Assembly (NCBI RefSeq): GCF_030408755.1
Contig: NZ_CP047209.1
Location: 2,356,001-2,420,000 of the forward strand
DNA: 64,000 bases
Source: Corynebacterium felinum
GTDB taxonomy: Bacteria > Actinomycetota > Actinomycetes > Mycobacteriales > Mycobacteriaceae
Direction of reading: 5' to 3'
A model generated the notes under the pieces. It did not search any database and was not told the DNA's origin. It worked only from the letters and a program-made list of their open reading frames with translations. The translations under genes and the position numbers were made by a program. This document shows positions 39,442 through 40,458 of the stretch, piece by piece (positions within the stretch are counted from its first letter, which is position 1; each line of letters opens with the position of its first letter).

Positions 39442-40458
39442 TTAAAAATCCCAATCCTCATCACTGGTATCAACAGCCTTTCCAATGATGTAGGACGAAC
39501 CAGAACCAGAGAAGAAATCATGATTCTCCTCCGCACCGGGGGCAAGAGCAGCCAAAATCTCCGGATTCACCTCACAGGACTCCGGCGCAAACAACGCCGG
39601 GTAGCCAAGATTCATCAACGCCTTATTGGCGTTATAGCGGACAAAAACCGCCACATCATCCATCAACCCCAACGGCTCATACAACTCACCGGAATACTCC
39701 AACTCCAGGTCATAAAGCTCATGGGTCAAACCAAAAGTGAAATCCTTGATCTCCTCCCGGCGCGCCGCATCCGCCTTATCCACACCGCGCTGGAATTTAT
39801 AGCCGGAGTAGTAACCATGCACAGCCTTATCCCGCAAAATCAGCCGGATCATATCGGCCGTATTTGTTAGACGGGCATGCACAGAAAAGTGCAACGGCAA
39901 ATAAAACCCCGCATACAGCAACAGCGAACTCAACAACGTGGAGGCCACTTTGCGTTTCAGCGGATCATCACCGTAGTAATGCACCAACACCTTCTTTGCA
40001 CGCTGCTGCAAAATCGGGTTGTTGATCGCCCACGCATAGGCATCATCGATCTGGGGTGTGGTTGCCAGAGTGGAAAAAACCGACGAATAGCTGCGGGCGT
40101 GCACTGCCTGCATGAACGCAATGTTGGTGTACACCGCCTCCTCATGCTCCGTTTGGGCATCCTGGATTTGGCTGATCTCACCCACAGTCGCTTGCACTGT
40201 ATCGAGCAGTGTCAAGCCGGTAAACACCCGCATCGTCAAAGTCTGCTCCTGGTCGCTGAGGGTGCGCCAATCGTTCAGATCATTCGACAGGGGTACTTTT
40301 TCCGGCAGCCAAAAATTAGCGGTTAGGCGGTTCCACACCTCAAGATCCTTCTCGTCCTGCAGGCGGTTCCAGTTAATCGGACGGATAGGACTTACTGGGT
40401 CGTGGGCAAACCCAGGTGGGGTGTGGGATGCGGTTAATAAAGAATCAGCAGTGCTCAT
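39442..40458 (-). CDS. nrdF: Ribonucleotide reductase small subunit NrdF, metal-free class Ie (QSK) type
   Basis: The 338-residue protein is the radical-generating subunit of ribonucleotide reductase. It aligns with class Ib NrdF throughout (STLLxSxLxYxGFYLP, GYKFQRG, [18 protein letters not shown], ending DEDWDF). Three of the Glu residues that bind the dimetal site are replaced: Gln117 in FMQAVH, Ser177 in STLLSSLL and Lys211 in RDKAVH. Asp86, His120 and His214 and the radical Tyr124 remain. This Q-S-K set is one of the two described signatures of class Ie R2 proteins, which work without metal, using a DOPA radical made from Tyr with help from NrdI. ATG at 40458 has AAAGGAGA upstream. It is downstream of nrdE. 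Confidence 0.93.

Follow-up and report, generated by a model that had tools for sequence, protein, structure and literature searches.

Organization of the locus

The window (the whole 64,000-nt stretch of DNA that was analysed) carries on its minus strand a ribonucleotide reductase (RNR) operon with the gene order nrdI, nrdE, nrdF, and behind nrdF, starting 45 bp past its stop codon, a gene of the NADPH-dependent FMN reductase family (Table 1). A palindrome (hereafter named palindrome A), a divergent pck gene and a gene for an MntR-type regulator lie on the other side of nrdI. The nrdF product has 338 amino acids, encoded between the ATG at 40458 and the stop codon at 39444–39442. In the mechanical list of open reading frames the same frame begins at 40653 (403 amino acids); the start was set at 40458 because the relatives of this protein begin near that position. 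The FMN reductase gene is followed, at a distance of about 0.6 kb, by an IS1380-family transposase gene (36616–38169, minus strand).

Table 1. Features of the QSK nrd locus in the window
Feature	Position	Strand	Remarks
Terminator-like hairpin after the FMN reductase gene	38647–38671	-	Terminator scan
NADPH-dependent FMN reductase family gene (PF03358), candidate NrdI reductase	38818–39396	-	113.5 bits, cut-off 24
Terminator-like hairpin in the interval from nrdF to the reductase gene	39416–39439	-	Terminator scan
nrdF, class Ie QSK type	39442–40458	-	D86, Q117, H120, Y124, S177, K211, H214
nrdE, R1 subunit	40514–42703	-	C-terminal Cys pair seen by eye in the alignment
nrdI, flavoprotein	42881–43447	-	Core 42881–43279; PF07972, 150.9 bits
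Palindrome A, AACTACG-N6-CGTAGTT, putative operator of the MntR-type regulator	43673–43692		Between nrdI and pck
pck, PEP carboxykinase	43749–45611	+	Divergent gene separating nrdI from the regulator gene; recognised by eye
MntR-type regulator of the DtxR family	45918–46625	-	Ligand columns D14, H84, E88, H103, E107, E110, H111

The NrdF protein is of the class Ie QSK type

The NrdF protein scored above the cut-offs of the family profiles PF00268 (279.8 bits) and NCBIfam RNR_1b_NrdF (435.5 bits), and its best sequence relatives in the PDB were 8RAG and 8RAH (500 bits), both structures of the QSK-type class Ie subunit from Gardnerella vaginalis. The PDB alignment with 8RAG was gapless over residues 5–338 with a constant offset of 26; it placed Q117, S177 and K211 on the Gln, Ser and Lys of that protein, and Y124 on Y150, the DOPA residue in 8RAH. 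In the class Ib NrdF of C. ammoniagenes (1KGN), by contrast, each of the three columns holds Glu. The earlier note had read a Gln-Ser-Lys replacement of three Glu ligands from the letters alone and had assigned the protein to class Ie; its coordinates, its numbering and all seven residues were found right when read by script, and both the replacement and the assignment are borne out by these alignments. The protein lacks the ligand set of class Ib, in which the metals are held by four carboxylates and two His, since three Glu are replaced. The Asp, the two His and the radical Tyr (D86, H120, H214 and Y124) are retained.

An AlphaFold2 model built from 31 sequences had a mean pLDDT of 85.9, with low confidence in the last 32 residues. 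The structures 8RAG and 8RAH filled the first five Foldseek rows for this model with a TM score of 0.75 but an rmsd of 11.4, so that the superposition is a weak geometric check and adds little to what the sequence alignment suggests.

A survey of nrdF loci yielded 206 loci, 173 of them distinct after removal of identical copies. The residue string D-Q-H-Y-S-K-H (QSK) was present in 132 of the 173 and D-E-H-Y-E-E-H (E/E/E) in the other 41, with no intermediates; the queries were the present protein or the E/E/E protein, and hence this is no random sample. In a quick tree of the 173 proteins with a midpoint root, the 132 QSK and the 41 E/E/E rows stood on opposite sides of a single branch. The substitutions are not due to chance, since the same seven-residue string recurs in 132 of the 173 loci, all on one side of one branch. 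The nearest proteins in the tree were those of Corynebacterium sp. HS2168-gen11 (88% identity) and C. phocae (87%). With the protein grouped among QSK sequences apart from class Ib, and with nrdI in the same locus, sequence comparison confirmed that 39442–40458 encodes a class Ie QSK-type NrdF.

Three observations on the collected sequences may be added. The NCBI names of two QSK proteins (P0121 and P0126) still say class 1b, one genome has a second nrdF-like match with an in-frame TAG (G027:C34:15991-16950), and another (G073) has two QSK-type nrdF matches.

Linkage of an FMN reductase gene to QSK nrdF

A structural model of the FMN reductase protein (pLDDT 82.7) matched 1RTT and FerB. The matching structures were reductases that use NAD(P)H, among them quinone and chromate reductases, with at most 29% identity among the matches listed, and an oxidoreductase structure of C. 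diphtheriae (3K1Y) appeared at rank 33. The protein thus has the fold and the family (PF03358) in common with the NAD(P)H oxidoreductases FerB, ChrR and 1RTT, for none of which we know of a link to ribonucleotide reduction.

A gene of this family was found directly 3' of nrdF (on the strand of nrdF and no more than 400 bp beyond it, own locus counted) at 51 of the 127 QSK loci that had enough downstream sequence, five of the 132 having been dropped, versus none of the 41 E/E/E loci; the statistics for this and the other association counts of QSK, regulator and reductase ignore relatedness. When the loci were clustered at 95% NrdF identity, 23 of 80 clusters had the gene behind nrdF. The pair occurs in six genera, namely Corynebacterium, Brevibacterium, Auritidibacter, Gulosibacter, Buchananella and Actinomyces, some of the genomes being metagenome bins. 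No such gene was found in the examined stretch of the Streptomyces and Bifidobacterium QSK loci, and the reductase is therefore not essential to QSK enzymes generally. In 24 verified E/E/E nrdF regions (7.9–15 kb), neither a reductase gene nor a relative of the regulator was present.

Rather than acting on NrdI, this protein may serve another task under metal starvation, with ferric iron, quinones or free flavin as substrate, and share at most the regulator with a class Ie QSK enzyme; we give this reading only slightly less than an even chance. The activities of its structural matches, given above, agree with it, and so do those of 201 Corynebacterium genomes that have only one of the two genes. 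Among the matches listed, 58 genomes had both a QSK nrdF and a reductase relative, 22 of the 80 QSK genomes had no reductase, six of the 64 reductase genomes had no verified QSK nrdF, and 115 had neither. Reductase relatives in the 64 genomes were taken at E ≤ 5e-49 (the next best genome gave 5.5e-19), and QSK was residue-verified in at least 80 genomes among the matches listed, a possible undercount. In three stretches without nrdF (L241, L244 and L245), the FMN reductase gene stands near an MntR-type gene, and the genomes of the first two contain no verified QSK nrdF. A terminator-like hairpin precedes the reductase gene in the window and would speak against full co-transcription with nrdF. 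The scan of the region gave six hairpins versus 6.5 in shuffles, and because there is no excess neither this hairpin nor the one after the reductase gene is evidence by itself. Against an unrelated task stands the position of the gene, immediately 3' of nrdF on the same strand in six genera and so at none of the 41 E/E/E nrdF.

The MntR-type regulator

The protein encoded at 45918–46625 matched the Pfam DtxR-family domains and scored below the NCBIfam equivalog cut-offs (best match NF047407, 169.6 bits versus 350; DtxR model, 77.2 versus 290). Two acidic residues, D14 and E107, occupy the columns of M and C in the DtxR of the same genome. The change from M and C to D and E has been ascribed in a review to selectivity for manganese over iron (PMC9936198). 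The genome has three DtxR-family genes: this one, DtxR, and an MntR-type gene (L301) that ends an operon for an ABC metal transporter (roles assigned by eye) and whose product is 40% identical to the regulator of the window.

The earlier note had pointed to an MntR/DtxR-type gene nearby and outside the operon. This observation stands, as only the divergent pck lies between the two, and relatives of the regulator also occur near QSK operons elsewhere: at 37 of 115 loci (window included) one lies, on either strand, no more than 5.2 kb from the QSK nrdF, often adjoining nrdI. In 31 of these linked regulators the first ligand column held D in 10, N in 17, E in one and a gap in three. As in the window, the divergent pck stands between regulator and QSK operon in L007 and L009. 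More broadly, a pck homologue was seen divergently upstream of the QSK operon in L007, L009, L044, L051, L066 and L256, which include Micrococcus and Leucobacter loci. Use of the enzyme under iron starvation appears less supported than use under manganese starvation, because the ligand columns of the regulator are MntR-type and not DtxR-type.

Two palindromes in QSK nrdI promoters

Palindrome A and a second one, palindrome B (TGTTCAA-N4-TTGAACA, which we take to be the MntR box of C. glutamicum), were first spotted when the upstream regions of nrdI were read side by side. The counts below refer to 115 promoters, those of 114 of the 132 distinct QSK loci plus the window; the remaining loci had no nrdI in reach. 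Expected numbers were obtained by first-order Markov resampling (30 per promoter). Palindrome A was perfect in 16 of the 115 promoters (0.0 expected) and present with up to two mismatches in 25 (0.13 expected). For palindrome B the corresponding numbers were five perfect copies and 15 with up to two mismatches (0.2 expected). At up to three mismatches, A and B occurred together in none of 77 clusters (95% NrdF identity).

Palindrome A (up to three mismatches) was found at 22 of the 37 loci with a relative of the regulator nearby versus 13 of the 78 without one, or, by 95% clusters, in 12 of 20 versus 12 of 57. At the same threshold it was absent from 15 of the 37 regulator-linked loci, and 30 of the 77 clusters had neither a palindrome nor a nearby regulator. 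Two of the 24 E/E/E regions also contain an A site, at two mismatches. In the 3.24-Mb genome of C. felinum, the copy in the window is the only perfect one. Further A sites with two mismatches numbered three, versus 20 for a control pattern, and were taken as chance.

A site of type B, AGTTCAATAGATTGAACT, which has two mismatches to B and is itself a perfect palindrome, stands upstream of the ABC metal-transporter operon of the genome. It is one of 45 genomic sites with up to two mismatches to B, versus seven for a control pattern, and many of the 45 are repeated copies. The simple reading of these distributions is that A would belong to the regulator that travels with QSK loci, and B to the ordinary MntR.

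The two palindromes were also sought at 18 reductase genes that lie away from nrdF or in genomes without QSK. Five had B (up to three mismatches) upstream, versus 33 of 3600 random windows, and 12 had neither A (up to four mismatches) nor B (up to three). Three of the five belong to related genomes in which the reductase and the QSK operon lie apart, with a B-type site at both promoters (L247/L186, L249/L187 and L253/L189). The reductase gene of L245 has a regulator gene and an A-like site with three mismatches, which is weak because A with up to four mismatches occurs in 284 of 3600 random windows.

Palindrome A lies 56 bp from pck and about 225 bp from the AUU start of nrdI, and on the plus strand it was detected by the terminator consensus scan as a stem followed by a T-run. 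It could accordingly regulate pck, to which it is closer, or be a transcription terminator, in either case unrelated to nrdI. Such a role is improbable: palindrome A also occurs upstream of nrdI in loci with no pck in the examined stretch (L206, L149 and L175), it is present as two tandem copies in L149 and L050, and it is identical in L007, where the flank resembles that of the window. A putative operator of the nrdI promoter is the reading that we retain.

Integrity of the operon and the second RNR set

The C. felinum genome, a single contig, carries a second set of nrdE, nrdI and an E/E/E nrdF (L001), whose NrdE is about 63% identical to that of the QSK operon. A normal nrdF elsewhere in the genome had been proposed as a check by the earlier note, and exactly one was present. 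An ORF resembling NrdH was found upstream of the nrdI of this second set; beside the QSK operon, a crude pattern search gave one implausible match and no credible nrdH. A ferritin-like ORF, recognised by eye, adjoins the normal nrdF (L001, 2847–3344, plus strand). In the region 42700–43900 an Rfam search at E ≤ 1 gave no match, and a consensus scan revealed no sigma-70-like promoter near nrdI or beside the palindrome.

The probable start of the QSK nrdI is an AUU at 43447, 11 nt after AAGGAG. Rare starts were also noted in near relatives, AUC in L007 and L206 and AUA in L008, each 7–11 nt after AAGGAG. No in-frame ATG, GTG or TTG precedes the conserved core in L007 and L008 (two of the 115 loci), and in the window and L206 the sole canonical option is a TTG without a good ribosome site.

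The lack of a canonical nrdI start with a good ribosome site, the transposase gene ending about 0.6 kb away and the presence of a normal RNR set might be taken to mean that the QSK operon is a decaying or silent copy, perhaps acquired horizontally. We consider this very unlikely, given that the four reading frames are intact, that the nearest rows in the NrdF tree are Corynebacterium and that the promoter palindrome is perfect.

Comparison with known systems

The QSK enzyme is already known: 275 QSK genes in 266 genomes have been reported, all within four orders of Actinomycetota, and QSK is the sole RNR in 65 species, 40 of which are Corynebacterium (John et al. 2025, PMC11846895), so that dozens of cases in this genus are on record. 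The closest characterized relative is the class Ie QSK protein of G. vaginalis (8RAG, 8RAH), which has the same Q-S-K, D, H, H and DOPA Tyr in register, with NrdI and NrdE alongside. DOPA is formed at its Tyr150 only with NrdI, and the protein is active only in the DOPA form together with reduced NrdI (PMC11846895). By analogy with it, NrdF of C. felinum would have a metal-free site and form DOPA. That three of the six metal ligands are kept could suggest a protein that still binds metal, for instance one ion through D86, H120 and H214, and functions as a class Ib variant, which is extremely unlikely as the G. vaginalis protein, with Q, S and K in the same columns, contains only trace Mn and Fe (PMC11846895).

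The gene order in G. vaginalis is nrdHIEF (PMC11846895), whereas no credible nrdH accompanies the C. felinum operon. C. felinum also differs from G. vaginalis in the FMN reductase gene after nrdF, the MntR-type gene upstream and the second, normal set. The class Ie proteins of Mesoplasma florum and Aerococcus urinae (6GP2, 6EBO) share the fold and the NrdI partner, but have the V-P-K set and the order nrdFIE (PMC11846895), with about 50% identity to NrdF of C. felinum. The family, the Tyr, the D and the two H are common to class Ib NrdF (1KGN of C. ammoniagenes and the second NrdF of the genome), while the three Glu differ.

Manganese control of nrdI-nrdF pairs in the genus has been published. 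The primary paper behind the C. diphtheriae MntR regulon is reportedly that of Peng et al. 2021. In Table 3 of PMC13001254, nrdI (DIP1923), nrdF2 (DIP1924), mntABCD and the oxidoreductase DIP2262 are listed as MntR-regulated. As listed, this regulon likewise unites an nrdI-nrdF copy, a manganese uptake operon and an oxidoreductase; C. felinum differs in having a separate MntR-type protein near the operon, with another palindrome. The neighbours of sodA in seven of ten loci included nothing bearing on DIP2262.

Expression of the class Ie enzyme of S. pyogenes was reported to be repressed by Fe and Mn, the conditions of class Ie use were described as not understood, and screening of flavodoxin reductases increased the radical yield of the class Ib enzyme of B. 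cereus (review, PMC8463856). In the literature searched, in which subscription journals were little covered, we found no paper that linked manganese control with class Ie or with a dedicated regulator, and none that treated NrdI together with an FMN reductase. What the present analysis adds is the palindromes at QSK loci and the linkage of the regulator and of the FMN reductase to them.

A proposed module for manganese starvation

The gene order, the residues, the promoter palindrome with its conservation, and the association of regulator and reductase with QSK loci, all directly established, can be assembled into a working model. In our judgement the locus is probably a module for manganese starvation, composed of MntR-type repression, a metal-free reductase and a candidate NrdI reductase. 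Counting against it are the loci in which palindrome A and the regulator do not coincide, the QSK genomes that have no FMN reductase, and the N in the first ligand column of 17 of the 31 linked regulators. The linkage, the ligands and the palindrome suggest that the MntR-type protein would bind palindrome A and repress; with manganese plentiful, the repressor on this site would keep the genes off. When manganese is low, which we suppose to be the signal, the operon would be expressed, as the related data from C. diphtheriae (PMC13001254) and S. pyogenes (PMC8463856) support. The FMN-reductase-family protein may then use NADPH to maintain NrdI in its reduced state. As in the family (PMC11846895), reduced NrdI would turn O2 into superoxide, which, by analogy with 8RAH (PMC11846895), would modify Tyr124 in two steps, to DOPA and on to the DOPA radical, with no metal involved. 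K211 would stand in for the charge of the metal. The radical would finally pass to NrdE, transfer from NrdF to NrdE being general in the family.

Extended to the Actinomycetota, the model would imply that metal-free class Ie enzymes are accompanied by two dedicated partners, a manganese sensor that has its own operator and an NADPH:flavin reductase. The sensor would induce the enzyme once manganese runs short. The reductase would be the physiological source of electrons that has been missing, holding NrdI in its reduced form both for DOPA formation and for renewal of the short-lived radical. We advance this wider proposal tentatively, with the chances somewhat against it.

This locus is of interest for its neighbourhood, through which two questions can be put to simple tests: under what conditions the metal-free enzyme is used, and what the reductant of NrdI is. 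Concrete candidates for both are offered by the promoter palindromes and the FMN reductase gene, and many species in the genus carry the QSK enzyme.
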